Assembly: GCF_037975245.1 (NCBI RefSeq)
Contig: NC_092561.1
Coordinates: forward strand, 16,869,001 to 16,933,000
DNA length: 64,000 nt
Source: Apostichopus japonicus
Taxonomy: Eukaryota > Echinodermata > Holothuroidea > Aspidochirotida > Stichopodidae
Direction of reading: 5' to 3'
The translations under genes and the position numbers were made by a program. Positions 36,701 through 64,000 of this stretch are shown piece after piece; position 1 is the first letter of the stretch; every line of letters begins with the position of its first letter. The notes beneath the pieces are model-generated. The model ran no database searches and was not told the DNA's origin. It saw nothing but the letters and a program-made list of their open reading frames with translations.

Positions 36701-39223
36701 ATGATGTCATAGTGTGGTCATTACATTGTAGCAGTAACCTCAGTTTATGGAAAAGGTATTATATGTGGACAGAGTAACTTCCTGTCCCATCATGTGTAAT
36801 CCATTGTCAAGATTCTCCTTCTAACTTATAAGTGAAAAACGAACTCGCCCCATGTTATATTAATGGACCACCTCTGTAACGCTTTGCTCTTCTTCCTATA
36901 TACACCTACAGTTTGCCCCTGGTCCTTAAACTAGGACTCGCTATGGCGATCTGTTGCTGCTGTACCTGCTCTTTGGAATGAATTCCCAATTCGTGTGTAA
37001 GATTTCCTCCACACTTGAAATTCTCAAAAGACAGTTTGAAACGTTTCTTGTATCTTATCTTGTTAGTGTTTGTTTGCTATGTTCCTATTTTCCTTTGTTA
37101 AGCCCTTAGAAACATTTGTAATTAGGCACTATATAAATGTTATTTATTATGATTATTCTTATTACTATGTAACTTTCACCAATTGTATTGAGTGTGATTT
37201 TACCTGCAGGAGCAGTGCTTCCTCTTTAGCATGGCTCAATCAAGCTTACTCCCCCCCCCCCCTCACACTACTTTCCACACTCACTGTACTCTGAGGATAT
37301 CTAGCCAGATGAAGATCTATATACCGTCTGATTCAACTACTTGTTCACATGTCCTTATTTCTGGTTCGCTTACCATTGTGACGGTGACATCCCAATGTTC
37401 CGATGTCTCGATGTTCCGACAATACCAAATAATTTTTGGACTCATAATTTTTTTTTATCAACAATTTCGGACCAACATTTTTTCTGACCAAAATTTTTTG
37501 GGGAGACTTAATATTTTTAGGCCCATTTTTTTCGGACACAATCTTCTTTGGGGACTCTTTTTTGGATGAGACTCTTTTTTGGATGGACATCTTTTCGAAC
37601 CTAATTTTTTGGGGGGACTGGACTCAATTTTTTTGACACACCAAATTTTGGGTTAATTTTCTTTCTTTTTTGCAGGAAAACATTTTTGGCCTGTAATCAT
37701 GTTGTTCCAAAAAATTTGCTCTGAAACATGTTGGTCCAAAAAATGTTGGTTCGAAAAAATTTGCTCTGAAAACATGTTGGTCCAAAAACATTTGGGCTTC
37801 ACAAGTGTTGGTCCAAAAAAATTTGGTCTGAAAAATTGTTGGTCAAAAATAATTGTCCAAAAATTATTTGGTATTGTCAGAACATAGAGACGTCGGAACA
37901 TAGAGATGTAATCGTTAAGACAGTTATTGCAAGACAGTGACTTGCAAGTCATTCATCTCAACTACATTGTACTCACATGGAGGTACTATTGTATGTCTTG
38001 ACACTCAGTGTGTATTGTTTGGTGGGTGTCTGTCATTTCATTTTATCCCCTTTTCATCTCATTTAGTTGGTCATCTTTGAGTCCAGAGGTCCGAGGTCAG
38101 CATTTGCACAAGATTGCGGACATTCTCGAGTCCCGACTCGACGAGTTTGCTGAGATAGAATCCCGAGACCAAGGAAAACCGGTTGGACTGGCCAAGAAGG
38201 TAGACATCCCCAGAGCTGTCCAGAACTTGAGGTTTTTTGCAACAGCAATTCAGCACACACTGAATGAGTAAGTAACTAAATATTGAAGGGGCTGCTATGG
38301 ATGTGTGTGATATTGTGTAGCAATTTAATTATTTTCTTAAAAGTATTTTGTAACTTTTGTTGGCATTTTCAAGACCAATACTCTGCCATTTAATGGTTCA
38401 TCTCCTATTGGAATACTTTATATAAAACATCTTTAAGTATACACTTCTATTGTATGCAAGTTCTCTAATACAGCTTATTTACATTTAGATTATTCTTCTT
38501 CTGCATAGTTCTGCTAGTCATTCATTGACCTAAATGATGATGATGATGATGATGGTGATCAAGGTGATGGTGGTGAGGGTGAGGGTAGTGGTGATGAGGG
38601 TCGTGGTGGTGGGGGTGGTGGTGGTGGTGAGGGTAGTGGGGATGAGGGTGGTGGTGAGGGTGGTGGTGAGGGTAGTGAGGGTGGTGGTGATGAGGGCAGT
38701 GAGGGTGGTGGTGGGGGTGATTGTGGTAGTGAGGTTAGTGGTGATGTGGGTGGTGGTGGGGGTGGTGGTGAGGCTAGTGGGGATGAGGGTGGTGGTGAGG
38801 ATGAGGGTGGTGGTGAGGGTAGTGAGGGTGTGATGAGGGCAGTGAGGGTCGTTGTGAGGGTGATTGTGGTGGTGAGGGTAGTGAGGGTGTAGTGTGGTGA
38901 GGGAGTAGTGGTGAAGGTTGTGGTGATGAGGGCAGTGGTGGTGAGGCTGTCAGTGGTCGTGTGGGTGGTGATGATGATGAATAAAATTGTTTGATATTTC
39001 CTTCCTTCTAGTTCAACAGTACAGAGTAAATTTGGTGTTTTCAACTATACGACTAAGAATCCCATCGGTGTAGCCGGGCTGATCAGTCCCTGGAATCTGC
39101 CTCTCTACTTACTCACCCTCAAGATTGGTCCGTGCATTGCAGTCGGTAACACGTGCATCTGTAAACCAAGTGAAATGACCTCAGTCTCTGCATGGATGTT
39201 ATGTGAGGTCATGAAACAAGCAG
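29117..39223 (+). CDS. ALDH8A1: ALDH8A1 (2-aminomuconate semialdehyde dehydrogenase), 5' three exons only
   Basis: Exons 29117-29313, 38067-38267 and 39012-39223 join in phase (610 nt, about 203 codons), covering roughly the first 40% of a ~490-aa enzyme. Recognisable family blocks: [83 protein letters not shown] and [17 protein letters not shown]. These include the PWN and KPSE contacts of the NAD-binding fold. The catalytic Glu and Cys would lie further on and are absent here. ALDH8A1 oxidises 2-aminomuconate semialdehyde in the kynurenine pathway. The start could be ATG 29117 or ATG 29150 (MALEVQNF); the latter resembles the family length better. The transcript presumably continues past 64 kb, or the gene is truncated. 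Confidence 0.85.
29760..30800 (+). pseudogene. decayed non-LTR reverse transcriptase (CR1/L2-like)
   Basis: Broken in several frames. Pieces in order: [20 protein letters not shown] (upstream ORF2 part), [20 protein letters not shown] then [37 protein letters not shown] (palm motif A), [16 protein letters not shown] (motif B region, GS changed to ES), and MYADDV with the catalytic YADD at 30762-30773. Internal stops and frame changes show it is dead. Endonuclease and C-terminus are missing. Confidence 0.8.
30801..33640. other. ALDH8A1 intron 1 sequence, no assigned features
   Basis: A C-rich run at about 31791-31806 and short CA runs near 32648. 31190-31960 looks like a repeat family (conserved style, no ORF) but no ends were found. 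No exon was recognised. Confidence 0.4.
33641..33760. repeat. GGTTCCTTGC..GGAACC hairpin plus GT microsatellite
   Basis: GGTTCCTTGCTTTAGCAAAA followed by GGAACCTATGCAGTCAGG, then a GT-rich run to about 33743. A second copy of the same module is at about 47189-47250, so this is a dispersed element whose end carries the microsatellite. Confidence 0.75.
33850..36090. repeat. tandem-like array of AGGTCA-rich units
   Basis: Long units with recurring blocks CTCCCAGTGCCAAGGTGTGA, TTTTCAAACTTAACGG, TTGACCTCAATTTGACCTCT and GTGACCTTCGTGTGCGAAG repeat about four times with partial deletions. It follows the GGTTCC/GT module directly and probably belongs to the same mobile family. Non-coding; intron 1 of ALDH8A1. 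Confidence 0.85.
33862..35777. promoter_or_regulatory. nuclear-receptor-type direct repeats (six DR4, three DR1)
   Basis: AGGTCA-CCAA-AGGTCA, a perfect DR4, occurs at 33862-33877, 34010-34025, 34668-34683, 34964-34979, 35363-35378 and 35762-35777. TGACCC-T-TGACCT, a DR1 on the minus strand, occurs at 34129-34141, 35083-35095 and 35482-35494. These match known binding-site forms for RXR heterodimers (DR4) and HNF4/COUP-TF/RXR (DR1). Function in vivo is not shown by sequence. Confidence 0.4.
36091..36889. other. intron sequence, nothing recognised
   Basis: No element ends or exons identified. Confidence 0.4.
36890..37170 (+). mobile_element. 3' end of a second non-LTR retrotransposon family
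   Basis: A frame reads [18 protein letters not shown], the standard C-terminal RT-ORF motif. It is followed by decayed coding sequence and the tail TAGGCACTATATAAATGTTA then TTTATTATGATTATT. Distinct from the copy at 3770. Confidence 0.6.
37385..37911. mobile_element. 527-bp palindromic (foldback/MITE-like) element
   Basis: The left ~50 bp (ATGTTCCGAC, AATACCAAATAATTT) is repeated inverted at 37861-37911. The inside is a degenerate series of TTGGTCCAAAAA/TTTTTTGGAC words on both sides, so the whole piece folds on itself. Confidence 0.75.
38067..38267 (+). CDS. ALDH8A1: ALDH8A1 exon 2
   Basis: 201 nt; acceptor ATTTAG, donor GA then GTAAGT. It encodes [20 protein letters not shown], then [18 protein letters not shown] and [15 protein letters not shown]. 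Intron 1 before it is 8.75 kb. Confidence 0.9.
38534..38990. repeat. GGT/GAGGGT-rich minisatellite
   Basis: ATG repeats turn into a long GGTGGTGAGGGTAGTGAGGG-type tract in ALDH8A1 intron 2, ending 22 bp before the exon 3 acceptor. Open frames through it (poly-Val/Met or poly-Pro/Ser) are artefacts. Confidence 0.9.
39012..39223 (+). CDS. ALDH8A1: ALDH8A1 exon 3
   Basis: 212 nt; acceptor CTTCTAG, donor G then GTACAG. It encodes [20 protein letters not shown] and then [19 protein letters not shown], the first NAD-binding part of the ALDH Rossmann domain. Confidence 0.92.
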
Positions 39224-40398
39224 GTACAGTCTATATATTAGAATCACAGTACTTGTGAAGAGCTGTATTGATCTATAATATAACAGATTAATGTAATGTA
39301 AATAAAGTTGTATATAGTGCTCTACGCGTGATGCACCTGTGCGCTTTACAAACAATCTAGAATATACAATGACTAAAACAGTAAATACATATACCATATA
39401 CAGACAGGAATATGAGATTGAAAAATGAATAAAAGCATTGGTGAAGAGTAAAGCGATAAAACAGATTGACTACAAAATCTACAATTAAGATTAGGTACAT
39501 GTCTGCATTATAACATCAGCAGATTGCTTGTATTGACTTTTGAATGGTAGAGAAAGAAGGAAGGAGGAGGGCAGTTGCCTAAGTGAGGGTCATTGCGGGC
39601 ACTGTGCAAGAATGGTATCAGTTGTTAGGCAATGAGGCTTGTAAGCATGTTTGTAAATACCCAAACCAGTAAGATTTGGGGTATTGATCATCACTTGGAA
39701 CCAATGTCTTGTATCACATAACAAATGCTATACAAGGTGTGCACACTGCAAGATGCAAAGATGTATGTAACAGTTTTGACTCATGGTTGGAGTGGAGTCC
39801 ACCTAACCCGAGTCCAACCACACAAGGCCTCTAGTTCGAGCCAAGTCCAGTTTCACTGGGTTCCAAGTCTGATACGGACTGGATTGTTGAGCCTCTCTTG
39901 TAAACAGGGCGTTAGGGAAGGGTGGAGGGTACGGGAGGGGGGTGGGGCACATATCATACCAACTTATAGTTAAGACCCTGTAGGCTTGACTGTTCCACAC
40001 ACAAGCATAATCCTTTGGGAACATACTGACAAGTAAATAAAAGTACAAGGAAAGGGGTGGCTTCATTTCAGCTCTTTACTTACCTCTTGAAGCCAAGTAC
40101 CTAAATATATGTGACGTAGACTATGTTCACATTAACCTACTCACCTTATTTTTTCCCTATGCTGTACTAACCTCCACCCCTCTCCACAACTGCAAACCAT
40201 AGAATACATCATACATATCTGATATCAAATTCAAGGTTTATGTGTATGCACAAATTCAAATTGATCTATAGATAATTATTGTACAAACTTCACATAGACA
40301 GGCCAGCTCTGTAACCATGCAGTGACCTATAGCTATATATGCTACTAGTTACTTTATTCACATCTGATTAAGATACTGTAACTATAAGAGCAAGAACC
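39224..40398. other. ALDH8A1 intron 3 start, nothing firm
   Basis: Around 39290-39350 a TATATAGTGCTCTACGCGTG / GCGCTTTACAAACAA stretch looks like a retroelement tail, but no family can be named. No exon 4 seen. Confidence 0.4.
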
Positions 40399-46505: not shown

Positions 46506-49134
46506 TTATTCAGATGTATAGGAGCAGATCTTCATTGTTCCTGTCACTGATAAACATTCTTTAGCTCTACAAGTTAGGGAGCTGTAGTCTGCACATGTTT
46601 GCAACATTTCTGAATGCAAGCTCCTTCTGTGAACAAGTGCATAGTTATACTACAAGTATAGTATTACACCCTTGGGCCTAACAACAGGCTTTTAGAGCTA
46701 CTCACTGAATTCTCAGGACCTCACCAGCCAAGGAAAGCATGCAGTGTTTGCTGCATCAGCCAGGGATGTTTAGACTCATTATTACTATTCTACTAGTCAC
46801 TATCAGCAGCTAAAATAGCTTGTACATCATGGTACTTCTTGAACAGTAACTATCTTCAGTAGAGATTAGTAAGAGCAACAATATTTTATACCCGGAAGCC
46901 ATCCATTTGTTGCCCAGCAAAGTGTACAAAATTGAACAGGAACCCAGCTGCAAAATTATATTCATTTAGTTCAGCAAGCAAGAACATATCCTCAAACATC
47001 TTACAGGGTAAGTCCTGTCTTCACAGCCTGTCTTATAGAATGCTAGAGGATCTTCACCAAAGCACATGGATTGCTGGACGCCATGTTCCTTAACACTGTG
47101 ATGCCAGGACTGGCTACTGCATTAGTTTGTATTTATAACCTCTGAGATGTGGTGTAGGGTAAAGAACTACTATCTGTTGCTATTTTTGGTTCCTTGCTAA
47201 AAGCAAAGGAACCTATGTATTCAGGTTGGCGTGTGTGTGTGTGTATGTATGCGTGTTCTTACTAGCCATACATATGTTGGACAAGTGGGACAATACACAC
47301 CTGCATTTGTGGGTCAGTTTTCTGTGTAACGTGCACTTGTTGGTCGTCCTACAAGTGATTATGCATTCAAAAACTCCAAAACGCTTAATTTGATTATTAT
47401 AGTTCATATACAGCAAAACATAATTTGTCCAAAAAGTGAATCTATTCTTGGTTCATTTGTGTATAAACGTGAATATAGCAAAAGTTCAACATCGCCCTCT
47501 ATTATGAACTGTCCCACAACAGTGTTGTCTGATATTAACTGAATCTTCTGCCTAAGTTACAAACATGTCTAACAAATGGTGGTGTGTTAGAGAACATTAG
47601 TCATAGCATGGCCCTATACGGTACTGTTTCAAGGTAAGTTGGAAGGAGTCTCCTATGTTTATTTGCATGAACACCTTTTATGAAGTTAAATTATCCTTCT
47701 CATCTTTTAAAATACACTTTCAAAATTACTACAAAGAATGCTATTCACATAATTCACTGAAGCTTGAAAATTTATATCAACAGTAAGTTTCTCATGTGAG
47801 ACATTGACACAGGTTTATATTTTTGAAAGTGAGTAGAGGAGGCCAAACAGGGTCATATAGCAGTCCAACTCATCTTCTAACCAACTATCACGACTAAGCG
47901 TAATCGCAATAAAAATAGTCCATGTATATGTACCCAGTTCAAACACTTCACTAAAGATCTGACTTCATAGCCAACAGCATCTGCTACCCGCAGGCAAATA
48001 TGTCATTTGAAAATGTGCCACCTCCAAGTGTAATAGCAGTTACAAGCGAAAAATAATAATTCGTTATTTTGCAAATCTAAACAATAAATTAGGCATGGAC
48101 AACAATACAAGGGGAGAGGGAGGGGCTTGTCCCCTCACATAACACTAAATGTCCCCCCCCCCCCACTTTTGGTTCGAAGAACCATCAAATTGTCCTTACA
48201 TTTATAACAATCGAGCCAAGGCCCACCCGGGACGTGTTTCATATTAATCGCCTAAATGTGATGTACATTCACATTGTAAGTAATATGTAATAAAAGTACT
48301 TCCATTTGTCAAGTCTCAGTTTTTGTGGTATCTTTAGTGCGCATGTAATACCACTTGAACATAGTGAATTAAATACTTAATTCTTATGCCAACAATTTTT
48401 TATCTTTAACATGACTAGGACATTGTACATGTGCGCATGGAAACAAGTGCAAACTTCAAGCAAAAGAAGTGGCATCGAAAGACGACCAATCCTGATCCTG
48501 GTATTGTAACTATTCATGCATGAAACTTGAGCCGATAAGGGCAAAGTATAGACGCTCATGAACCCAGACCTGCCCTTACATCTCAGAAAAAGTAGGCGAA
48601 AATAGTGTTATCAGTTCTAACGGTTGGTCGATATGATGATGCAGAAGGCTTTTGTGTGAGGAGGACACAAACCAAACACAGACTGACCTGAACTGCCACA
48701 CCCCGTACCCTACGGGGCCCAACCGTTCAGCCCACCCCCAACCACCCACCCACCCTTATAAGTAGGCAACCACAGGTACCATCAGAATGGCCTAATGACA
48801 GTGCTTTCATATCTGGTTATATACGTAACAATAGGTACAAGTGCGTTATTGACATGTTTTGTTTAAGTGGACATTTCTCAAATCATGAGATCTCAAAATA
48901 AAGAAATTGTACATGTTACTCAAGTGCCTGGAAAGTGGCAATCTAGGAGGCTTTTTTCGCAAACTGTTTCTTGGTACAAATATCCTCAAAATGTATTAAC
49001 TGACACACAATGTATTCATCTTTATAATGAAAACTTTTGCATCAACCATAAATGGAATACGAGACGGCCACCATGATATCCCACGCTAGGCAAGGACATG
49101 TAATATTACAAGAATATTTTTCAACCAATGTGCG
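46506..49134. other. intergenic or intronic sequence, little recognised
   Basis: Contains the second GGTTCCTTGC/GT module (about 47189-47250) and a poly-C run near 48153-48164. No exon of a known family was identified. Confidence 0.4.
47189..47250. repeat. second copy of GGTTCCTTGC hairpin with GT run
   Basis: GGTTCCTTGCTAAAAGCAAA then GGAACCTATGTATTCAGG and a short GT run; same module as at 33641, without the AGGTCA-rich body behind it. Confidence 0.7.
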
Positions 49135-49530
49135 GCTGCATAAAAAAAAACATAACGGGTGTGAAGACTCTCGCAAAAATGACGTCTAAATGCCGGTACT
49201 TTGACCTATATAGTTTCAAATGAGGTGTAACAGAAGTGTTAAACACCACCATTGATCCCCGAAAATACACACAGCTTGCTGCCGTCGGTAATTAGACACT
49301 AGTGTACAGTCAGTACATACAGCTGCCGTTAATACCCACAGCACAGTGTACAAACCATACAGCGATGGACATCTCAGGTCCAGCTAAAGATAACAATTAA
49401 GGTATCACGTTTCATTACTGTTTGCATTTTGTAGCGACACGAACAAAATGTTACTTGCAAGCAACAGAGAGTTAACTTTTTCAGATTGGCCGCACGCGGT
49501 TTGTGGCGAGTCTTCAATGCCTTTAAAGGC
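49135..49530. repeat. dispersed repeat, copy 2, with empty hAT target site
   Basis: Collinear with 13405-13539 plus 15667-15899 at roughly 90% identity by eye. At 49288-49295 it has a single GTAATTAG where copy 1 has the 2.1-kb element between two copies of that octamer. Confidence 0.85.
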
Positions 49531-50004
49531 TACGGTGAAAGAAATTCACCCACTAAAAGATGTTAATGTGTATGAACAAAACTGCACAATATATTTGTAG
49601 CAGTTTTGGGGAATGCGTAAATCAAACAGTTAAATTGCCTTGTTTGTGAAGGGGTAGAGCTGATTGCACCCTATGTTTACTTGGGGTAGAATTCCTCAAT
49701 TAAGTTAGGAATAACAACACTGATGACATTCAAAAACAATGAAAAAGAAAATAGTATCAAGATTCCAAAATTTATTTAACATTCCTGTAAATAACAATAT
49801 CATAACGTTTTAACGGTATACACAGGAAGTAACTAAATTGCATAATAAACTACCACTGACTTGGGAGTAACATGTTGAAAATATATATGTAACAAATGAC
49901 TTCAATAATAATAACAAGCTTTTGTAAAGTGTACAGTATTTAAATTTCACAACTCCTGATGAAAATGACCCAATTAATTTATCAAATTTAAAGCACTAGA
50001 TTCC
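49531..50004. other. nothing recognised
   Basis: A/T-rich sequence without coding or repeat signature. Confidence 0.4.
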
Positions 50005-51470
50005 TGAATAGTCTGCATATGTTCCCTCTCTCATGTTTGAAGGATTTGGTAAAACCGTACAGTGCCATACTAAGAATACGTACAGCTTCTTCAGTCAGGG
50101 AAATAGAAATTGATAAACTGTATCTACAATGCTTTCAAACTTTCAATACAATGTACAATTAAACTGAATTAATTACAATAGAATTGTAATACAATATAAA
50201 TTCAGAATTCAAATATTCAATTTATTCATGACAAAGTTTATATAGAAATCACATTTAAAAGAGCCTGTAAAAGAATGATGAGTTAAGATTTCACAAAGGA
50301 TTTACTACGAACGTCAGTGAAAAATGAAGAAAATTGCACCAATATGATAATGTAGTGTATGTTACTTTTATGCTGCAAAAGAATGTTACCATATGCAATC
50401 ATCAATGTATTACATTAGAGTTAGCATATTTTAAAATCCGCTTAAGGTGGATACAGAATCCCTAATAATGATGAAATATTTGAATCAAAATAACCAATCA
50501 AGTGTCAATTAAATGCTAAGTAGAAAAGTGACAATTGCTTTTTAGCAATTATATGAATAAACAACAATTTTGATTTAAAATGCGTTATTGTAACACATGT
50601 AAACAAACAAAATGAAGGTATTTTATTATTCTAATGTTGAATTACTATTGTCGAAGAACAACAAGATTCTTGAAAATTTTGAAATGTCAGTAGTCTGCAA
50701 ATGTTCCCTCTTTCATGTTTGAATTATTCGGTAAAACCTTACAGTGCCATACTAAGAATACGTACAGCTTCTCCAGTCAGGGAAATAAAAATTGATAAAC
50801 TGTATCTACAATGCTTTCAAACTTTCAATACAATGTACAATTAAACTGAATTAATTACACTTAAGGCATCAATTTGCTGTACAATAGAATTGTTATACAA
50901 TATAAATTCAGAATTCAAATATTCAATTTATTCATGAAAAAGTTTATATAGAAATCACAATTCAAAAGAGCCTGTAAAGGAATGATGAGTTAAAAATTTT
51001 ACAAAGGATTTACTACCAACTTCAGTTAAAAATGAAGAGAATTGCACCAATATGATAGTGTAGTGTATGTCACTGTTATGCTGCAAAAGAATGTTACCAT
51101 ATGCAAGCATCAATGTATTACATTAGAGATAGCATATTGTAAAATCCGCTTTAAGGGGGATATAAGATTCATAATAATAATGAAATAGTTTGCTTAATTA
51201 AAATAACCAATCAAGTGTCAATTAGACGCTATGCAGAAAAATTAACAACAAATTTAGCAGTTATATGAACAAACAACAATTTTGTTTTAAAATTCATTAT
51301 AGCAACACATGTAAACAGGTATGTTATTATTCTAATGTTGAATTAGTACTGTCCAAGAACATGACTCTTGTGACTTACAAACGTCGGTGAAAAAAAACAC
51401 CAATATGATAGTGTATGGATGTTACTTTTATGGTTTTCCTCAGCAATATGAAAACGAATCATGATATTTA
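50005..51470. repeat. tandem segmental duplication, about 690-bp unit
   Basis: Two full copies (starting near 50005 and 50690) share GTACAGTGCCATACTAAGAA, TACGTACAGCTTCT, CAATGCTTTCAAACTTTCAA and AAGAATGTTACCATATGCAA. Shorter diverged pieces (CACCAATATGATAGTGTATG) recur near 51390 and 51905. Confidence 0.85.
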
Positions 51471-52063
51471 AGATCATGTGTCATGTCTGTGGTGAGTCTG
51501 TCAAAATCTGAACAATTTAGTAATTTGTGCCAGAGGTACAGCTGGCTGTACCATGTTAAGGATACATGCAAGTTGAGGGGGCGAGCTCCTTCATTTGTTT
51601 TCTCATTTGGCATTCCAAATCAAATGCACTTTTTTACTGAAAAGATACTAAAAATGAATATTTGCAATCATTCCAAAATCCCACCCCCCCCCCTCACTTT
51701 AAGAAAATACTATAATTACACTAATGGTTACAATTTGCTGTATGATGAAAGTGGTATACTAATACTATATTCATTCAGAAATATCCAATTGTAATCATAT
51801 GAAAATTTGACATACAAATCACATGTTTGTATGTGCCTGTAAAGGAATAAAGTTCAAATTTCACAAAGGACTTACAAATGTCAGTGACTGAAAATAAGCA
51901 ACTGTACAAATATGATAGTGTATGGAGACAACTTTTTAGCTTTATCGTAATAAGCTTTAAAAAGAAAGAAAATTTAATGAGGGTCTTTAAAATTTGGGGA
52001 TAATTTTTAGAAACCACACATGTTTACACTACTGTTGCTGAGGAGGAGTAGAACAAGCTGTCT
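51471..52063. other. 3' flank of the recombinase-like gene
   Basis: A/T-rich; likely 3' UTR of the minus-strand gene plus remnants of the 690-bp repeat. No other feature. Confidence 0.4.
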
Positions 52064-54297
52064 TTAATACTTCATTTGTTCCCTCTTATTCTTTTGTATG
52101 ATGTTCCATACTTTGGACTTTATTTGTACTATGGACCTGCGCTTAAGACAGGAATTCTTTAGCTTTGCTTGAAGGCAATCTTTTGACACAGGTGGGTGCA
52201 TGGCATTGATAGCCTTTCTAAGGCATGGATCATTAATAACAGCTGTCTCTTCCTCTTTTGTCCACATTGTTTTAGATATTTTCACCCTCTTAGTTGGAAG
52301 TGCCTTTGTTGGCTCTTTTGATTCAGAGTTGTCACTCTCATTTCCGTCTGACATTTCTATGTCTGACAGAAGTTGGCTTTCCTCAATCTCAACTTCTTCA
52401 AGGGACCTCCCTTTAAATTCATGAAGTTTTCCCTTCTCAGCAGTTAGTAAAAGCTTCCTCACTTTTGCAAGAAATATGACATCTTGGGGCAGCCGGTAGT
52501 ACTGCTTGTGGACGGTTACATCATGCCCTAAATGGTTGGCCAATTGTTCTAATTCAGTGTTGGATAGACTAAGGATTTGTGAAAGAGTTGCTAAATGCTT
52601 GCGCAGATTGGTGGCGGTCAGTCTGTCAGGATTTTTGGCCCCACACAAATGCGCGTATTTGTGCAAACAATCATAACCTCGAAGCGGCTGAACAGAGTTT
52701 CCTGATGGGCAAGCAAATATGTATGGGTTTTGTGGATCGACGCCAGCAATTTGACGAGTTTTGTTGAGTACTTTAACCGAATCTGCCATGTCAGGGGTTA
52801 ACAAGATTGGCACCCCTCTGTCACGTTTTCCACGTGTCATTATTAGAGTAAGCCTCTTTGCTGCCAGCTTTTGTGCTATTGGAAGAGATTCAAATATTTC
52901 ATCTTGGAACTCTCTCTTTTTCTTTGTTTGCTCTAAATAATCTGACATTCTCAAATATTGTGTTTCGCCAGGTCTACGGCAATTGAACATTATTAGCTGA
53001 GCAAGGGTTAAAGAAGCCAACTCCCGCCAAGTGGATGTTGATACTTCATTACCTTGTAACTTCTCTTTTGTAGTACAAACTTGGTTTGTCAGTAGCTGAT
53101 TGAGCTTCACAGTGTCGGCTGTTAAGGGAACTTTCTTTGTTTTTGCCACTTTTGCTTGCATTGTTGCTTATAAACTTTTGTGGCAATTCTTTGTTTCCAT
53201 TGCAGATTCTTTAGTTTCAAGAACTGCTCTGCTTTGCACTCCTGCAAGGTATCTGATGATTTAATGGATTCTGCAATTACAATTTCAGCCAAAGTAGTTA
53301 GGCTTTGTCCCAGCTTTTTAGCAAGTGTGGGTGCTTCAAAGTTTTGGTTTGAAGTGTCAAATCCAGAGCAAATGTTAACACCAAGGATCACGTCATCGAA
53401 ATGTGCTGGGTCTACTAAGTCTTTAGCAGACTTAATAGATGCATTTATTTGCTGTGTTTCAAGAAGGAGCCTTGCAATGCGCCTCATTCTTTCTGAAACA
53501 ATGTTGTGATTAATTGTGCTGCTATCATCACAGTGATGCTCTCCTAATTTGCAGATCCAGGAATCTGCTCTTATGGTAACAACAACACTATCAGTTCTCA
53601 TACCAGCAAGTATCTCTTGCAGTTTAGCACTGCAGGGACTTTTTGTTGGAAGCAATGCCCTACCAGCCTTTTGACACTGTGCAGTTCGAGATGTGGTTGG
53701 ATTTTCCTTTGCTTTTTTTAGGGTACATTTCTTTTGATGTCGCCACAATGACTTTTTCGCAAAATAGCCTTGGCAATCTGGGCAAGGAATGTAATCTTCC
53801 ACATGCATTGTGCCTAATTTTGGTCTTTTGTAGACCAAGAGCTTTCCCTTGCCTTCTTTTAGCACACGACAATTATAGGCATTGTCTCCCTTTTTTCTGA
53901 TCTCTTCTAAAATTGCATTTCTTTCTGCTGACCTTTTTGGCAACAGCATAGCTTTCATTACCAATATTTCATCAGCATGATGAGTTTCTAGATGTCTTGG
54001 TAATTTGGTTACATTTTTTTCACAAAAGAGGCAACAGTGTTGTCTGTTCCATGTTCTTTTCCTACTTTTACTATAGTAAGTGGAAGATACTTTGACACCA
54101 TCTGAATGATTTTTACTTGTTGAGGGCTTTTCATTTTCACTGCTTTCTTCTTCGGATTCTTCATCTGTTGTAGATTCACTCTCACTAAATGCGTCTAGGT
54201 AATCATCGCTGAAATCCTCCTCATCAGTGCTGGTGCATTCCTCACTATCATAGTCCGTTGTTTGCATATGGCTAAGATGCTTTAGCCTTTGTGGAAC
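52064..54297 (-). CDS. last exon: zinc fingers, recombinase-like domain, SANT-like tail; one frameshift
   Basis: The acceptor CTTCTAG precedes 54297, and the frame runs VPQRLKHLSHMQTTDYDSEE. The first frame stays open from 54297 to its stop at 53122. The second, in the -1 frame, runs from about 53161 to the stop at 52064. The overlap is about 40 nt in an A-rich stretch. The protein context reads sensibly across it (IATKVY...QKW in one frame, PLTADTVKLNQLL in the next), so one net base appears lost. No canonical slippery heptamer in the zero frame was found. Single-base decay, assembly error and polymorphism are all possible. Confidence 0.75.
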
Positions 54298-57200
54298 CTA
54301 GAAGCAAACATAGTTTTAAAGACAAATGTTGTGATTGAATTCAAGTTTATGCAAACATAGTTGGTTTGTATGGTACAACATTACATCCAGAGTTCTAGAC
54401 CTTATATTTTGGACAATGGTGTCTGAGATCTGAAATAGTCAGTGTCTTGTAATATTATTGTTGCCTATTGGTCAATTAATTATTTGACTTCAGGAAAACT
54501 GGAACTTGTCATAAAACTTTCAGGCTGAAGTCACCTAATAATGAAAACCCTTTGACTTAAAACTTCCTGAGTGATAATATGTGTTCCAGTATAATTGCTT
54601 ATCGTAGCTGTCAGTTAGCGCTATAACACTGCTAAGCTAACAAACTGGCTGACTGCCCAGGCAAACATTACTGTTGGGAAATCAAGTCTTAAAGTGGGAA
54701 GGAGGTAAACCTGGGGAGGGGTATAAAAAGAGAGACTCATCTTTAGGAAGTTTTGGATTTTATAAAGCTCCTAAATGTTATATGGTGCAATATTTATAAG
54801 TTATTTTCCCCTTGTCATCTCATCCCTGATCTACTTACTTGATCTTTGGTTTATATTTTCGCAGCTGAGCAAAGTCACCTTTAATAATGGTACATATTAC
54901 AAGATTCAATGAAAAGATGACTTTAACAGATTCTTAGTACATTTATTAAAATACATAAGAAACTGGCAAAGCAAAGTTATTTTAACCAGGTTCTTCATTC
55001 ATTTCCAGGCAAAGGGTGCCAGTCAGAGTGACAGTACCTTGCCCAATGTTTTATAACTCCATTATTAACCAATTTTCACTTGATACAAGCCTGAAGCAGA
55101 TGGGAAGTTATTTCCAGTGAAGTTCCCCATTAAAACAAACACGTGATGAAATTATAAATGGGAAACTGACTAGGAGAACTTTTAATTTGAAAAGTGCCTA
55201 GGAAATTAGGGACAGCTACCTTCATATGGCTGAGTAGCTCAGTTGGTGAAGCACAGGTCCATAATCCTGAAGTCACTGGTTTAGAATCCCATCTTGGCCT
55301 CAATTCTTTGCACTTTACAAATTTTATTAAAATATCTCCCAGTCATTTTTCCATTTATAATTTCATTATTCATTCATATATCACATTTAGATACCAAAGT
55401 TACAATACCTGAGCCTTCATTTGTTCTAGCATCCTTTCAAAGATTGGTTGCAGTTCAGGGTGAGACTGTGAACAGATAATTAAACCTCTTTAGAGCATTT
55501 GTAATTTTAATGAGAGAAGTAAACAGAGCCATAATTGTTGATACGATATAGAAGCTTGAGACTGATACCTTTATAAGGTTCTGAATAAAAACTTCATGAG
55601 GTAATATAGGTTTCTTGGCCAAAAAAAAGGAAGAGTTACTGCACTAGAAGATGGCTTTTCTCCACAATTTGTCATTTTGTCTCTGGGAGACAAGCGGCCT
55701 GAAGTAACATGGTTGAAACATTGATTACAAAGGTAGGATTACACATGTTTATTACTTGCAGCTCATTCCTTTATCTTACTTTATGTTAGAAAAATTTGAA
55801 AACCTAAATTGAATGTTTTGAAATAACAACACTTACTTCCTGACATGGTTTGTTCAAGATATCTGTTTAAAAGATAGAAATAACACATTTTATTTATCAC
55901 AGTCTGAAATGCATGCAAACTGTTTCGGATTGTGTGTATTGCTTTAATATTGGTAATGTGTTTATTTGTTTACCTTGAACCTGCATTGACCTTAAACATT
56001 CTTTTAGCAGTCATAACTTTCCTTTTTGTTGAAGCATTTCCTGATTCCAAAAAGTTCAGGTAACCATAGTTCAAAACAGTAACAAACAGAAAATAATTTC
56101 CAGATAACCGTATGCATGTAGAAACAGTGATTTCTATAGATATTACCTCCTCATAAGAATTCATACATGTAAGCGATATATTCTGCTTGAGAATAATACC
56201 TGCCTACAGTTTTGACTAGGAAATATATTTGTAATGTTAATTAACAGTTTAAAAAGAACCGAATGCTTTGTTTACTAGTTGTAAAGATATTTTCACACTG
56301 GTGATTACAAAATAAAGTTGGATTTCCATCTTTAGACAATTACAATGCATTGTTTACCTCACAAAAATCATAAAATGTTTTAGTCATAACTATTAAAATA
56401 GCTTTGCTTCTAGTTTGTATCTTACCATATGAGTACATATTTCCTGTCAATTCGTCTAAAAAAACTGCTTCATCACGGTTTGAGTCTGCAATGTTAAAAC
56501 GATTAGAAGTTTTTTGTTTATTTTGTGATTATAGTAGATTCAAGATTAATGAAGAGAGCCCACATCTAACCCTTAAAGCTATTTAACTATGCCATTTTGG
56601 TATATTATCATAATTAGTTGCAAGAAAATAATCACAATTTGTTTCGAATAGTATACATCTTCAAACATAAAATACAAAAAAAAGGGGACCTACATATGAT
56701 ACAGACAATTTATTCAAAGACATTGGGCTGCACTTACCAAGTAAGGAGTTGTGATATTTTCCTAGATCAGCATCAAAGTACAGTTCACCGCCTGTGTCTT
56801 CTGTAAGTTAAAAGTGTAAGAAGTTGTAAATGATATTACTGCAGCTATTAAATGTTTAGATTTAACATAGTTAGGGATATATCTTAACTACGGTATAATG
56901 CCTGAACAGTAGTTAGATTTAAATGTTAATAGCTAAAGAACACATAAGCCTGATAGTTAAGTAACATGCATGCATTTGGACTATAGCTATCAACACACGA
57001 CAAGGATTTACAAGAAAATGTTTAATCATAGAGATATGAATATGAAACATACTAGTAAATGATGTTGAAGTTGAGGTTGAAATGCTCTCCTGAAGAAATA
57101 TGTAGTAAAATATGAGAAACATATTTGTTATTGTTTGCAAAAAAAGGACCAAAATTTGAGTCAAAATTTTTTCCATCTTAATGCTATGATTGCAGAGCAT

Positions 57201-60200
57201 CAGTATCACATGTAATCAATATTAAAGTAGCAATATAACAATATAACCTGTTCTTTCACTATGTTCCAGACTAGCATTAAAAAGCAGGCAAAGACAGCAC
57301 ACAGAGGATGCCTGTAGATATGGACTCCTGAAGGTTTAACTCGCTATTTACTAAAGAAAAGACTATTTGCTTCACTTCAGCAGCTTCGACATTGCGTTAT
57401 TAGTGTAACGGTAGTAAAAGGAAGCAATGCACCAACTATTCCAGAATGCAGTTTGATGCAGTTTACATGATTTAAAATTGTTTGTTGCATGAGTCACTTA
57501 ACAAAGGAGTGATATGACTCAAGTAGAAAGGGCATGTGTTACGTAGTGACTTCACAACAGCATGTAAAAGCCAAATCGCATTAAGTTTGGACAATTTGTT
57601 CACATGCAGTGTATCATGTACAGTAGGTCTTGTACACACTGCTACAGGATTCAAAAGGACATCAAACGGAAAAGACAAAGCTACTTACTTTGCAACATGA
57701 CTTGATAATAATTCTCAAACACAGTTCAAATTTCAATGGGTTAAAGCATTACTTTGGATTTATGAATTAATTTCAATTAATTTTAATAGTTAATTTGTGG
57801 TATATTCTTCCACAAAAGGTTATCACATTTCAATTGTTGGAAGCTTCTTTTCAAGGCCAAAGCTAGTGTTAAAAACAGTTCTTGGTCAACTGAGCACACA
57901 CACATTCACTTGTAGGTCTGCATATAGTGCCATACTTACTCAAATCACAGGACAGTCACTCCTTTTATTTTGTAATGAAATTTACTCATTTTCAAACAGC
58001 ATTTTAAGTATCTCAATGTACATGGATGTAGGCTAGTATACCTACCTTACTATTTTCTGTGACAATTTCGTCATTGGCTTCACAAATGGTCTGTGTAAAA
58101 ATGAGGACAAAATAGTCATGTTAACATCAAATTACAGAGTCACATACAGGTGTGGCACAACTGGACTTACACACAGGGTCACTTGTTGGTCTAGTTGTAA
58201 GTGTTAATGAAATCAAAGAAAGACCATAACAAATACAAAATTGACATGATTTACAACTTGTTTTTAATTAATTTTAATAACATAGGGTGCCTTCTGAAAC
58301 CCACACCATCAAACTATGGTTAAAATTTTACAAGAGCTTGTGCCAGAGCTAGTGTTAAAAACAGTTCTTGGTCAACTGAGCACACACACATTCAATTGTG
58401 GGTCTGCATATAGTGCCATACTTACTCAAATCACAGGACAGTCACTCCTTTTATTTTGTAATGAAATTTACTCATTTTCAAACAGCATTTTAAGTCTCTC
58501 AATGTACATGGATGTAGGCTAGTATACCTACCTTACTATTTTCTGTGACAAATTCGTCATTGGCTTCACAAATGGTCTGTGTAAAAATGAGGAGAAAATA
58601 GTCATGTTAACATCAAATTACAGAGTCACATACAGTTGTGGTACAACTGGACATACACCCAGTGTCATTTGTGGGTCTAGTGTAATTGTTAATGAAATCA
58701 AAGAACCCGCCCCCGCCCCCCCCCCAAAAAAATTACTGAATTGACATGATTTACAACTTGTTTTTAATTAATTTTAATAACATAGGGTGTCTTCTGAAAC
58801 CCACACCATCAAACTTTGGTTAAAATTGTTCAAGAGCTTGTGTCAGAGCTAGTGTTAAAAACAGTTCTTGGTCAACTGAGCACACACACATTCACTTGTA
58901 GGTCTGCATATAGTGCCCTACTTACTCAAATCACAGGACAGTCACTCCTTTTATTTTGTAATGAAATTTACTCATATTCAAACAGCATTTTGAGTTTCTC
59001 AATGTACATAGCTGTAATATAGTATACCTACCTTACTATTTGCTGTGACAATTTTGTCATTGGCTTCACAAATGGTCTGTGTAAAAATGAGGACAAAATA
59101 TTCATGTTAACATCAAATTACAGAGTCACATACAGTTGTGGCACAACTGGACTTACACACAGTGTCACTTGTTGGTCTAGTTGTAAGTGTTAATGAAATC
59201 AAAGAAAGACCATAACAAATACAAAATTGACATGATTTACAACTTGTTTTTAATTAATTTTAATAACATAGGGTGCCTTCTGAAACCCACACCATCAAAC
59301 TATGGTTAAAATTTTACAAGAGCTTGTGCCAGAGCTAGTGTTAAAAACAGTTCTTGGTCAACTGAACACACACACATTCAATTGTGGGTCTGCATATAGT
59401 GCCATACTTACTCAAATCACAGAACAGTCACTCCTTTTCTTTTGTAATGAAATTTACTCATTTTCAAACAGCATTTTAAGTATCTCAATGTACATGGATG
59501 TAGGCTAGTATACCTACCTTACTATTTTCTGTGACAAATTCGTCATTGGCTTCACAAATGGTCTGTGTAAAAATGAGGACAAAATAGTCATGTTAACATC
59601 AAATTACAGAGTCACATACAGTTGTGGTACAACTGGACTTACACCCAGTGTCATTTGTGGGTCTAGTGTAATTGTTAATGAAATCAAAGGACCCGCCCCC
59701 CCCCCCAAAAAAATTACTGAATTGACATGATTTACAACTTGTTTTTAATTAATTTTAATAACATAGGGTGTCTTCTGAAACCCACACCATCAAACTTTGG
59801 TTAAAATTGTTCAAGAGCTTGTGTCAGAGCTAGTGTTAAAAACAGTTCTTGGTCAACTGAGCACACACACATTCACTTGTAGGTCTGCATATAGTGCCAT
59901 ACTTACTCAAATCACAGGACAGTCACTCCTTTTATTTTGTAATGAAATTTACTCATATTCAAACAGCATTTTGAGTATCTCAATGTACATGGATGTAGGC
60001 TAGTATACCTACCTTACTATTTTCTGTGACAAATTCGTCATTGGCTTCACAAATGGTCTGTGTAAAAATGAGGACAAAATAGTCATGTTAACATCAAATT
60101 ACAGAGTCACATACAGTTGTGGCACAACTGGACATACACACAGGGTCACTTGTTGGTCTAGTTGTAAGTGTTAATGAAATCAAAGAAAGACCATAACAAA

Positions 60201-63200
60201 TACAAAATTGACATGATTTACAACTTGTTTTTAATTAATTTTAATAACATAGGGTGCCTTCTGAAACCCACACCATCAAACTTTGGTTAAAATTGTACAA
60301 GAACTTGTGCCAGAGCTAGGGTTAAAAACAGTTCTTGGTCAACTGAGCACACACACATTCACTTGTAGGTCTGAATATAGTGCCATACTTACTCAAATCA
60401 CAGGACAGTCACTCCTTTTATTTTGTAATGAAATTTTCTCATATTCCAACATTATTTTAAGTATCTCAATGTACATGGATGTAGGCTAGTATACCTACCT
60501 TACTATTTTCAGTGACAAATTCGTCATTGGCTTCACAAATGGTCTGTGTAAAAATGAGGACAAAATAGTCATGTTAACATCAAATTACAGATTCACATAC
60601 AGTTGTGGTACAACTGGACTTACACCCAGTGTCATTTGTGGGTCTAGTGTAATTGTTAATGAAATCAAAGAACCCGCCCCCGCCCCCCCCCCAAAAAAAA
60701 TTACTGAATTGACATGATTTACAACTTGTTTTTAATTAATTTCAATAACATAGGGTGTCTTCTGAAACCCACACCATCAAACTTTGGTTAAAATTGTTCA
60801 AGAGCTTGTGCCAGAGCTAGTGTTAAAAACAGTTCTTGGTCAACTGAGCACACACACATTCACTTGTAGGTCTGCATATAGTGCCCTACTTACTCAAATC
60901 ACAGGACAGTCACTCCTTTTATTTTGTAATGAAATTTACTCATATTCAAACAGCATTTTGAGTTTCTCAATGTACATAGCTGTAATATAGTATACCTACC
61001 TTACTATTTGCTGTGACAATTTCGTCATTGGCTTCACAAATGGTCTGTGTAAAAATGAGGACAAAATAGTCATGTTAACATCAAATTACAGAGTCACATA
61101 CAGTTGTGGCACAACTGGACTTACACACAGTGTCACTTGTTGGTCTAGTTGTAAGTGTTAATGAAATCAAAGAAAGACCATAACAAATACAAAATTGACA
61201 TGATTTACAACTTGTTTTTAATTAATTTTAATAACATAGGGTGCCTTCTGAAACCCACACCATCAAACTTTGGTTAAAATTGTACAAGAACTTGTGCCAG
61301 AGCTAGTGTTAAAAACAGTTCTTGGTCAACTGAGCACACACACATTCACTTGTAGGTCTGAATATAGTGCCATACTTACTCAAATCACAGGACAGTCACT
61401 CCTTTTATTTTGTAATGAAATTTTCTCATATTCAACCAGCATTTTAAGTCTCTCAATGTACATGGATGTAGGCTAGTATACCTACCTTACTATTTGCTGT
61501 GACAATTTCGTCATTGGCTTCACAAATGGTCTGTGTAAAAATGACGACGAAATAGTTATGTTAACATCAAATTACAGAGTCACATACAGTTGTGGCATAA
61601 CTGGACATACACACAGGGTCACTTGTTGGTCTAGTTGTAAGTGTTAATGAAATCAAAGAAAGACCATAACAAATACAAAATTGACATGATTTACAACTTG
61701 TTTTTAATTAATTTCAATAACACAGGGTGCCTTCTGAAACCCACACCATCAAACTTTGGTTAAAATTGTACAAGAGCTTGTGCCAGAGCTAGTGTTAAAA
61801 ACAGTTCTTGGTCAACTGAGCACACACACATTCACTTGTAGGTCTGCATATAGTGCCATACTTACTCAAATCACAGGACAGTCACTCCTTTTATTTTGTA
61901 ATGAAATTTTCTCATATTCAAACATTATTTTAAGTATCTCAATGTACATGGATGTATGTTAGTATACCTACCTTATTATTTTCTGTGACAATTTCGTCAT
62001 TGGCTTCACAAATGGTCTGTGTAAAAATGAGGACAAAATAGTTATGTTAACATCAAATTACAGAGTCACATACAGGTGTGGTACAACTGGACTTACACCC
62101 AGTGTCATTTGTGGGTCTAGTGTAATTGTTAATGAAATCAAAGAACCCGCCCCCCCCCCCAAAAAATAAAATAAAATAATGAATTGACATGATTTACAAC
62201 TTGTTTTTAATTAATTATAATAACATAGGGTGTCTTCTGCAACCCACACCATCAAACTTTGGTTAAAATTGTACAAGAACTTGTGCCAGAGCTAGTGTTA
62301 AAAACAGTTCTTGGTCAACTGAGCACACACACATTTACTTGTAGGTCTGCATATAGTGCCATACTTACTCAAATCACAGGACAGTCACTCCTTTTATTTT
62401 GTAATGAAATTTACTCATTTTCAAACAGCATTTTAAGTATCTCAATGTACATGGATGTAGGCTAGTATACCTACCTTACTATTTTCTGTGACAATTTCGT
62501 CATTGGCTTCACAAATGGTCTGTGTAAAAATGACGACAAAATAGTTATGTTAACATCAAATTACAGAGTCACATACAGTTGTGGCACAACTGGACATACA
62601 CACAGGGTCACTTGTTGGTCTAGTTGTAAGTGTTAATGAAATCAAAGAAAGACCATAACAAATACAAAATTGACATGATTTACAACTTGTTTTCAATTAA
62701 TTTTAATAACATAGGGTGTCTTCTGCAACCCACACCATCAAACTTTGGTTAAAATTGTACAAGAACTTGTGCCAGAGCTAGTGTTAAAAACAGTTCTTGG
62801 TCAACTGAGCACACACACATTCACTTGTAGGTCTGAATATAGTGCCATACTTACTCAAATCACAGGACAGTCACTCCTTTTATTTTGTAATGAAATTTTC
62901 TCATATTCAACCAGCATTTTAAGTCTCTCAATGTACATGGATGTAGGCTAGTATACCTACCTTACTATTTGCTGCGACAATTTCGTCATTGGCTTCACAA
63001 ATGGTCTGTGTAAAAATGACGACAAAATAGTTATGTTAACATCAAATTACAGAGTCACATACAGTTGTGGCATAACTGGACATACACACAGGGTCACTTG
63101 TTGGTCTAGTTGTAAGTGTTAATGAAATCAAAGAAAGACCATAACAAATACAAAATTGACATGATTTACAACTTGTTTTTAATTAATTTCAATAACATAG

Positions 63201-63977
63201 GGTGCCTTCTGAAACCCACACCATCAAACTTTGGTTAAAATTGTACAAGAGCTTGTGCCAGAGCTAGTGTTAAAAACAGTTCTTGGTCAACTGAGTACAC
63301 ACACATTCACTTGTAGGTCTGCATATAGTGCCATATTTACTCAAATCACAGGACAGTCACTCCTTTTATTTTGTAATGAAATTTACTCATTTTCAAACAG
63401 CATTTTAAGTATCTCAATGTACATGGATGTAGGCTAGTATACCTACCTTACTATTTTCTGTGACAATTTCGTCATTGGCTTCACAAATGGTCTGTGTAAA
63501 AATGAGGACAAAATAGTCATGTTAACATCAAATTACAGAGTCACATACAGTTGTGGCACAACTGGACATACACACAGGGTCACTTGTTGGTCTAGTTGTA
63601 AGTGTTAATGAAATCAAAGAAAGACCATAACAAATACAAAATTGACATGATTTACAACTTGTTTTTAATTAATTTTAATAACATAGGGTGCCTTCTGCAA
63701 CCCACACCATCAAACTTTGGTTAAAATTGTACAAGAACTTGTGCCAGAGCTAGTGTTAAAAACAGTTCTTGGTCAACTGAGCACACACACATTCACTTGT
63801 AGGTCTGAATATAGTGCCATACTTACTCAAATCACAGGACAGTCACTCCTTTTATTTTGTAATGAAATTTTCTCATATTCAACCAGCGTTTTAAGTATCT
63901 CAATGTACATGGATGTAGGCTAGTATACCTACCTTACTATTTGCTGTGACAATTTCGTCATTGGCTTCACAAATGGT
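52064..63977 (-). CDS. tyrosine-recombinase-like (Crypton-like) multi-exon gene, 5' end outside window
   Basis: Exons on the minus strand, all phase-compatible: thirteen 45-nt exons (63977 down to 58046), 57089-57053, 56800-56738, 56485-56426, 55862-55837, 55465-55409 and the last exon 54297-52064. The N-terminal part is acidic and Ser/Thr-rich. The last exon has a CxxC..HxxxxH motif (CLFCEKNVTKLPRHLETHH) and a CxxC..HxxxxC motif (CPDCQGYFAKKSLWRHQKKC). A -1 frame change near 53122-53165 separates these from a tyrosine-recombinase-like domain. That domain has FNCRRPGE (Arg I), RGKRDRGVP, TATNLRKHLATL (Arg II; the usual His of HxxR is Thr) and LANHLGHDVTVHKQYYRLP (His and Tyr). A basic Myb/SANT-like tail follows. 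Similar proteins occur widely in fish and invertebrates, possibly Crypton-derived. Active transposon versus host gene is undecided. Confidence 0.7.
54298..55227. other. intron of recombinase-like gene, nothing recognised
   Basis: The stretch between the last exon and the tRNA-like relic shows no repeats or exons. Confidence 0.4.
55228..55299 (+). mobile_element. tRNA-like sequence (SINE head or tRNA pseudogene, CAT anticodon position)
   Basis: GGCTGAG at the start pairs with CTTGGCC at the end (7 bp with wobble). Box A is TAGCTCAGTTGG, a perfect consensus. A CAGG..CCTG anticodon stem has CAT in its loop. Box B is degenerate (GGTTTAGAATCC), and the T-stem does not pair properly. No CCA or T-run terminator. 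Best read as a tRNA-derived SINE head or dead tRNA. Confidence 0.6.
55409..55465 (-). CDS. recombinase-like gene, 57-nt exon
   Basis: Acceptor TTCACAG, donor GTATTG, phase 0 on both sides. Encodes SHPELQPIFERMLEQMKAQ, a likely helix. Confidence 0.65.
55837..55862 (-). CDS. recombinase-like gene, 26-nt micro-exon
   Basis: Acceptor AAACAG, donor GTAAGT. It completes an Asp codon and encodes ILNKPCQE; it converts phase 1 to phase 0, and the frame fits both neighbours. Confidence 0.55.
56426..56485 (-). CDS. recombinase-like gene, 60-nt exon
   Basis: Acceptor TTGCAG, donor GTAAGA; phase 1 in, phase 1 out. Encodes DSNRDEAVFLDELTGNMYSY. Confidence 0.65.
56738..56800 (-). CDS. recombinase-like gene, 63-nt exon
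   Basis: Acceptor CTTACAG, donor GTAAGT; phase 1 in, phase 1 out. Encodes DTGGELYFDADLGKYHNSLL. Confidence 0.65.
57053..57089 (-). CDS. recombinase-like gene, 37-nt exon
   Basis: Acceptor TTCTTCAG, donor GTATGT. Encodes ESISTSTSTSFT; converts phase 0 (from the 45-nt exons) to phase 1, matching the next exon. Confidence 0.6.
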
Positions 63978-64000
63978 CTGTGTAAAAATGACGACAAAAT
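57770..64000. repeat. 486-503-bp tandem array, 13 units, continuing off the window
   Basis: Unit spacings measured at the exon are 486, 500, 486, 495, 486, 501, 486, 486, 503, 486, 486 and 486. Two unit types exist: a 486-bp type with AAAGAAAGACCATAACAAAT, and a longer type with a C-rich ACCCGCCCCC run. They alternate at first and then occur as two or three short units between long ones. A 68-codon plus-strand frame is open in every unit, but lacks any family signature and is treated as chance. The left-most unit decays between about 57770 and 57850. Confidence 0.97.
58046..63977 (-). CDS. thirteen tandem 45-nt phase-0 exons (acidic 15-aa module)
   Basis: Exons: 58046-58090, 58532-58576, 59032-59076, 59518-59562, 60013-60057, 60499-60543, 61000-61044, 61486-61530, 61972-62016, 62475-62519, 62961-63005, 63447-63491 and 63933-63977. 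Each has acceptor TTTTTACACAG and donor AAG then GTAGGTATA, is exactly 45 nt, phase 0, and free of stops. The consensus product is TICEANDEIVTENSK. Variants are I to F (copies 2, 4, 5, 6), E to A (copies 3, 7, 8, 11, 13), E to K (copy 3), T to A (copy 11) and S to N (copy 9). They join in frame to the exon at 57089. If all are used, they add at least 195 residues. Use in mRNA is inferred, not shown. Confidence 0.6.

Follow-up and report, generated by a model that had tools for sequence, protein, structure and literature searches.

A tandem micro-exon array predicted to encode an expandable acidic linker in a SET-recombinase mobile element of the sea cucumber Apostichopus japonicus

Introduction

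What is the role of a satellite-like array in which every unit carries the same short open segment between splice borders? This question is raised by a stretch of 64,000 nucleotides of the sea cucumber Apostichopus japonicus (contig NC_092561.1, positions 16,869,001 to 16,933,000; hereafter the window, whose numbering is used throughout), in which units composed of an intron and a 45-nt micro-exon are repeated in tandem. Our analysis indicates that the array is probably a coding region of a gene belonging to the mobile element in which it lies, and that it would provide an expandable and mostly acidic linker in a predicted transposon protein joining a SET domain to a recombinase. The observations on which this reading is founded are the array itself, five copies of the element, a frame open through all the exons, a SET match, conserved recombinase residues and the arrays of related families. 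An earlier reading of the window (the original prediction), made from its letters only, had described the exon array and a recombinase-like gene downstream of it. It had overlooked the mobile element with its five copies, the SET domain in the first half of the gene and the arrays in the related families.

The micro-exon array

The array is made of the following features:

57856-64000, minus strand: tandem array of 486-503 bp units (intron + 45-nt micro-exon), detected by Tandem Repeats Finder (TRF); 14 exons in the window copy, one of them beyond the window
63933-63977, minus strand: m2, the first array micro-exon wholly within the window; m3-m13 are between m2 and m14, and m1 is outside the window
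58046-58090, minus strand: m14, the last array micro-exon (TICEANDEIVTENSK)

TRF reported a single tandem array with a period of 486, 12.5 copies and 92% matches. A scan for copies of the 45-nt segment, allowing up to 12 substitutions and no indels, found 13 copies on the minus strand at 58046-63977 with a unit spacing of 486-503, and a 14th (m1) past the window end at 64463-64419. The tandem 45-nt phase-0 segments of the original prediction, each with an acceptor, a donor and no stop, were confirmed. The unit reads ttacacag / ACCATTTGTGAAGCCAATGACGAAATTGTCACAGAAAATAGTAAG / gtaggtat or a near variant, and the phase-0 translation of the exon is TICEANDEIVTENSK.

When one unit was searched against the genome of the window (671,581,487 bases, 35 contigs; C1, C9 and similar names are our working contig labels), the array was found at five loci on four contigs. 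The distance between successive hits of the scan is always 474-507, so no unit inside any of the arrays has been missed. All 69 array copies of the five loci are 45 nt long, preceded by AG, followed by GT and devoid of stop codons, in agreement with the frame-neutral exon that had been proposed. In the 64 aligned units used for the diversity test, the first 21 nt of the exon are invariant and eight variable sites are found in the other 24. In the 486-bp unit, the 45-nt exon is the sole AG..GT segment of 30-75 nt with a donor score of at least 7 and an acceptor score of at least 11. With these thresholds, which were chosen after the exon had been seen, a phase-0 open candidate appeared in 7.2% of 400 dinucleotide-shuffled versions of the unit, and in 0 of 400 when an aspartate/glutamate (D/E) content of at least 25% was also required. 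From this architecture we infer that the segments are spliced and translated.

The likeness of the copies to one another bears on an explanation by alternative splicing, in which one or a few near-identical exons would be chosen per transcript (mutually exclusive splicing) or the number of included exons would vary. Tandem exon duplications are generally linked to mutually exclusive splicing (PMC9013439). Two sequences, however, account for 27 + 27 of the 69 copies, so that choosing one of them would yield almost no new isoform. All the array exons are moreover symmetric, and nothing therefore forces the exclusion of any of them. We hold a mechanism of this kind to be quite improbable.

The mobile element

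The five loci are copies of one mobile element of 21.7 to 25.2 kb, the window copy being of 23.3 kb. The identity between the copies is 95.6-99.2%, over alignment pieces outside and across the array.

47231-64000, no strand assigned: the part of the mobile element within the window, delimited by alignment to the other loci; the remainder reaches about 70480

Three of the four other loci align to the window copy from 47231-47234 to 70456-70482, which places the ends within a few tens of bases. The alignment of the C16 copy reaches 47210 and 70763, owing to a flank similar to the window flank there. In most copies both ends adjoin GT or GTAT repeats, in which a short target-site duplication is indistinguishable. 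An imperfect subterminal motif of 14 bases, CATACNNATGTTGG, occurs at 36-78 nt from each end, in inverted orientation; the scan of one copy (C9b) showed it at no other place. The number of array units per element copy is 14 (window), 17, 10, 11 and 17. No homogenisation of the arrays after insertion was seen, the mean unit distance being 0.0559 within copies and 0.0568 between copies (permutation p 0.28).

Two further features of the element were observed. Downstream of the recombinase exon, a direct duplication of 650-680 bp (50009-50660 and 50691-51361, blocks 89-95% identical) is present in the window copy and also in the other four copies. Within an intron of the element, a tRNA-like stretch, gctgagtagctcagttggtgaagc..., at 55230-55290 is perhaps a short interspersed element; ARAGORN reported no tRNA gene in the window.

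The predicted SET-recombinase gene

On the minus strand, the predicted exon order is a start exon, two SET exons, m0, the array, x1 to x5 and a large last exon. The exons other than those of the array are listed below; families B and C are relatives of the window's family (A) and are described in the next section.

68461-68350, minus strand: start exon, beyond the window
67195-67036 and 66477-66285, minus strand: SET exons, beyond the window
65601-65557, minus strand: m0, a diverged micro-exon copy (TTSKDNEVHVTEKNK), outside the window
57689-57713, minus strand: x1, 25 nt (NYYQVMLQ + one base), phase 0 in and phase 1 out, weak acceptor gtgtttgag
56738-56800, minus strand: x2, 63 nt (DTGGELYFDADLGKYHNSLL), with a homologous exon in families B and C
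56426-56485, minus strand: x3, 60 nt (SNRDEAVFLDELTGNMYSY)
55837-55862, minus strand: x4, 26 nt (ILNKPCQE; B counterpart DICTVSCQE)
55409-55465, minus strand: x5, 57 nt (SHPELQPIFERMLEQMKAQ)
53122-54297, minus strand: last exon, first part, with paired Cys/His motifs and an acidic stretch; in the window copy it ends at the stop reached after the frameshift
52064-53167, minus strand: last exon, second reading frame, with the putative tyrosine-recombinase catalytic domain

In the other four copies the last exon is a single exon of 2235 nt (744 aa). With 17, 10, 11 and 17 array exons and ten further exons, the joined frames of these copies are uninterrupted and predict proteins of 1246, 1141, 1156 and 1246 residues. 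The window copy has no stop in any of its 14 array exons either, but a frameshift in the last exon breaks its frame, which meets a stop after 848 codons. Phase 0 is found on both sides of the array in all five copies, and family B has a 37-nt exon at the x1 position with the same phases as x1. The original prediction held that the array would continue in phase into the recombinase exons downstream and that protein length could change with the number of units. Both points stood: the phases fit at every junction of the predicted gene, and with the unit number differing between element copies the predicted length varies from 1141 to 1246 residues in the four copies whose last exon is intact.

The N-terminal 170 residues match the Pfam SET domain (PF00856, E 2.2e-20). 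For the first 155 residues the best PDB match is KMT5A/SETD8 (E 4e-27), the next other molecule being at 3.6e-15. By similarity, the predicted SET part is KMT5A/SET8-like. The KMT5A stretch RLINH of the PDB match is RLVND in families A and B, so the predicted methyltransferase activity, on lysine 20 of histone H4 (H4K20), may be changed.

In the recombinase part, residues R64, K113, R188, H214 and Y223 are invariant in 17 aligned family members, with a distance of 9 between H and Y. This R..K..R..H..Y series in the last exon fits the catalytic pattern of tyrosine recombinases. Pfam Phage_integrase matched two of the 17 members (best E 0.0004) and MOM1, an unrelated-looking model, matched four of them (best E 0.0011). 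DUF3504 was not among the Pfam matches at E ≤ 1 for these 17 members or for three full last exons. The same three exons gave no credible family match in Pfam, PHROGs or NCBIfam, and PDB profile searches with the recombinase part matched no recombinase.

Between families A and B, the ratio of nonsynonymous to synonymous divergence (dN/dS) is 0.20 for the SET part (dS 1.48) and 0.12 for the recombinase exon (dS 2.23, near saturation); the comparisons with family C are saturated. These values point to a predicted gene that was kept working as the families diverged.

Related families and their linkers

A genome search with the recombinase part returned at least 111 matches (111 of 166 candidates were scored), and SET exons were found near many of them. 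Thirteen SET-to-recombinase linkers were compared, those of A and of 12 families named B to N (without L), hand-chosen mostly for a short distance. Families D and E look closely related and are not to be counted as independent. Exon arrays or in-frame coding repeats were found in 8 of the 13 linkers, a figure that applies to this hand-chosen set, drawn entirely from these families.

The recombinase domain of family B is 69% identical to that of A. Its array 1 consists of eight copies of TTNEEHDEVPQEEMNTM (51 nt, phase 0, acidic) between SET2 and x1, as in A, with a spacing of 937-1336 bp apart from one gap of 7.8 kb. Its array 2, located further along, encodes TSDDD(S/N)DKAIYEENDSK (51 nt), with three copies 268-273 bp apart and a fourth at a distance of about 6.5 kb. 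Counted from the first SET exon, the start exon being excluded, the joined B frame runs for 1146 residues before its stop. In the five B copies (C13:2.75M, C13:8.97M, C16:32.0M, C16:31.8M and C9), array 1 has at least 8, 9, 8, 9 and 6 units (40 of 49 candidates scored) and array 2 has 4, 4, 3, 3 and 3 units; a related locus on C17 has a further 3. Family N repeats a 60-nt phase-0 exon, LISEPQPDEVTSNSGEQSEV or a near variant, 12 times, and its copies on C12, C23 and C1 have 12, 14 and 10 units respectively. Four arrays in three families (A, B and N) each hold a phase-0 exon, of 45, 51, 51 and 60 nt. Shuffle controls covered A and both arrays of B.

In five further families (F, H, I, K and M) the linker contains in-frame coding repeats, with periods of 279, 138, 141, 537 and 258 and copy numbers of 5.9, 2.8, 2.2, 2.1 and 3.0, respectively. 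These periods are multiples of 3 because the open frame requires it. The exons of A, m0 and B array 2 resemble one another (p 0.0006-0.0008, for pairs picked after inspection). A likeness of the single 45-nt exon of family C to these exons was rejected, since it does not rise above shuffles (p 0.24-0.45).

These families bear on the idea that the array acts as DNA, seeding heterochromatin, binding the recombinase or holding a promoter or an enhancer, its coding content being incidental. The unit introns of A are homogeneous as well and include an invariant stretch of 26 nt that starts 197 nt after the exon start, and arrays are present in five of five A copies and five of five B copies, all of which would suit such a role. 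But the repeated DNA differs between A, B and N, although in each it lies between SET and recombinase, and in five families nothing but coding sequence is repeated. A DNA-level role of this sort is the least probable of the explanations considered here, and a very improbable one.

Three side observations concern these relatives. The introns of family C contain three minisatellites (L020:1772-2910, L020:3768-4367 and L021:4081-5824) built on a 51-58 bp unit like CACAACTGTATGTGTGAGGTAAGT, in which many units carry a donor-like GTAAGT and no clear acceptor. Counted by eye, 28 of the 111 listed recombinase matches are on C17, a contig with 37.2 of 671.6 Mb. Many of the 28 are short fragments, and some belong to a single copy; C17 may be a region of low recombination in which these elements accumulate. 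The listed matches of the family B copies at C16:31.82-31.85M and C16:32.02-32.05M are exactly 199,200 bp apart, one at 31836047 having no listed partner, and the pair is either a large segmental duplication or an assembly duplicate.

Constraint on the array exon

Several observations weigh against a coding use of the array. As a check, the original prediction had proposed asking whether codon positions 1 and 2 of the 45-nt segment vary less than the intron part of the unit, and this was not supported. The diversity is 0.020 in the exon versus 0.061 in the rest of the unit, yet 46 of 437 equally sized windows have a lower value than the exon, and 8 of the 9 distinct codon changes in the array exon, counted by eye, are nonsynonymous. 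The m0 exon shares 30-31 of its 45 nt with the array exon (67-69%), versus 71-75% for the intron pieces aligned by gapped search. Its mismatches by codon position are 3, 5, 6 or 3, 6, 6, with no clear excess at third positions, and its K/R count equals its D/E count. None of the divergence tests pointed clearly to selection acting on the array exon. Furthermore, symmetric exons can be skipped with the frame still open, and the open frame is therefore no proof of their inclusion. On the protein side, a single-sequence structure model of the recombinase part had a mean predicted local distance difference test score (pLDDT) of 36, too low to be of use. Among the relatives, N does not pass the donor filter of the shuffle control, most of its units having gtacgt, a weak donor. 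The copy number is only 2.1-2.8 in three of the five coding repeats, and of the five repeats four are acidic, that of K being basic. Family M also has a 24-copy array of 199 bp whose best candidate exon, of 26 nt, is not frame-neutral, and it was not accepted as an exon array. No such array was seen in the SET-to-recombinase stretch of families D, E, G and J. Family C has intronic minisatellites and a 45-nt exon, DSTNQDTTMDEEHEK, in a single copy, with no exon array.

Two additional comparisons were considered. An ungapped alignment of m0 (exon + 22 nt before + 8 nt after) had suggested an exon outliving its intron. This idea was dropped: the gapped search extended the match into the intron with two further pieces, 83 and 97-99 nt long, at E values of about 1e-7 and 1e-5, from which it follows that m0 is a whole diverged unit. 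A tighter constraint on exons than on introns among four A copies was likewise not retained. On the 3' side, variable sites are 10/2466 in exons versus 27/3137 in introns, whereas the 5' side goes in the opposite direction, with 5/510 in exons versus 14/2390 in introns; the picture is mixed and the changes are too few.

The same data can be explained by an intronic satellite that grew for non-coding reasons and carries a cryptic exon as a passenger, skipped or rarely spliced in. An exon not clearly less diverse than its intron, with almost only nonsynonymous changes, and an m0 exon no closer than the aligned intron pieces are what this explanation can call upon, together with the large minisatellites of C in the same region with no clear exon and the 199-bp array of M lacking a settled frame-neutral exon. 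It has to face, however, the m0 exon, in which length, phase and splice sites have been preserved and no indel is present, and the presence in three families of four arrays that each hold a phase-0 exon, three of them with shuffle controls. It has also to face the five further families in which coding sequence is repeated in the same linker. A passenger exon is in our view unlikely, while deserving more credit than alternative splicing.

Proposed function of the linker

The coding reading of the array, which we prefer, may be described as follows. Each unit, an intron plus a symmetric phase-0 exon of 45 nt, would add an acidic module of 15 residues between the SET domain and the recombinase. 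Spliced in full, the array would give a negatively charged and length-tolerant tether. As the module is short, mostly charged and symmetric, any number of copies could be inserted between the two folded parts. Units would be gained or lost by unequal recombination or replication slippage, and since the exons are symmetric the frame would remain intact at any copy number, so that the element could tolerate array changes that would disrupt an ordinary gene. Close to where the recombinase acts, the tether could enable the SET part to modify nucleosomes or to bring in chromatin factors. If the exons are used, a satellite has been turned into a coding device in which each unit gained or lost makes the protein 15 residues longer or shorter but leaves it intact.

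A broader and more speculative proposal, which we regard as possible and put forward tentatively, is that of a superfamily of animal transposons with a SET-fused recombinase. The linker would have been lengthened repeatedly and independently by micro-exon arrays or in-frame repeats, and this protein-length dial would have been kept because linker length or charge affects the site or frequency of insertion. Selection on length and a chromatin function are what we infer here. The expansion of the linker in 8 of 13 related families hints that its length matters and provides a natural series for testing its role. The fusion itself raises the question of whether the element writes or reads chromatin marks at its target.

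Comparison with known systems

Cryptons are DNA transposons with a tyrosine recombinase having four conserved catalytic residues, and sea urchin is among their hosts (Kojima and Jurka 2011, PMC3212892). As described there, animal Cryptons lack a C-terminal domain and no terminal repeats were found in them, the tested CryptonA recombinases match DUF3504, and the first-found sea urchin, insect and cnidarian Cryptons encode only a recombinase (PMC3212892). Cryptons are the nearest described elements to the present one, a DNA-type mobile element whose key enzyme would be a tyrosine recombinase. Unlike animal Cryptons, it lacks the DUF3504 match in the 17 sequences and is predicted to code for more than a recombinase, with a SET domain at the N-terminus. 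The family A element has many introns, a size of 22-25 kb and a short inverted subterminal motif.

The predicted fusion also resembles a host gene in which a SET methyltransferase domain is likewise joined to a DNA-cutting enzyme of a transposon (PMC8704517). That fusion is a single host gene, whereas here the gene would be the element's own, in multiple copies and with a recombinase of another class. The transposase of the host fusion gene is of the mariner type.

Schistosome micro-exon genes have many short exons with a length that is a multiple of 3, and encode secreted proteins with differing micro-exons. The present gene is similar in its many short exons of such length, but here a satellite within a mobile element repeats a single exon. 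In the kringle IV-2 region of LPA, units made of an intron and one or more symmetric exons are repeated in tandem, and protein length tracks the copy number of the array. LPA differs in being a host gene with large folded domains, neither part of a transposon nor repeated across an element family.

Among the open-licence papers listed, none describes, by title or start of abstract, an element combining a SET domain or KMT5A with a tyrosine recombinase. By the same parts of the papers, no such element was among the matches listed for Cryptons, exon duplication and exon arrays. In the available part of the sea cucumber genome preprint PMC13228809, KMT5A, SET domain and methyltransferase are unmentioned. 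This literature result covers open-licence papers and is no proof that the element is undescribed.

Other features of the window

Plus-strand frames at 38002-39258 look like aldehyde dehydrogenase exons, and those at 30046-30684 like a degenerate reverse transcriptase of the long interspersed element (LINE) type.

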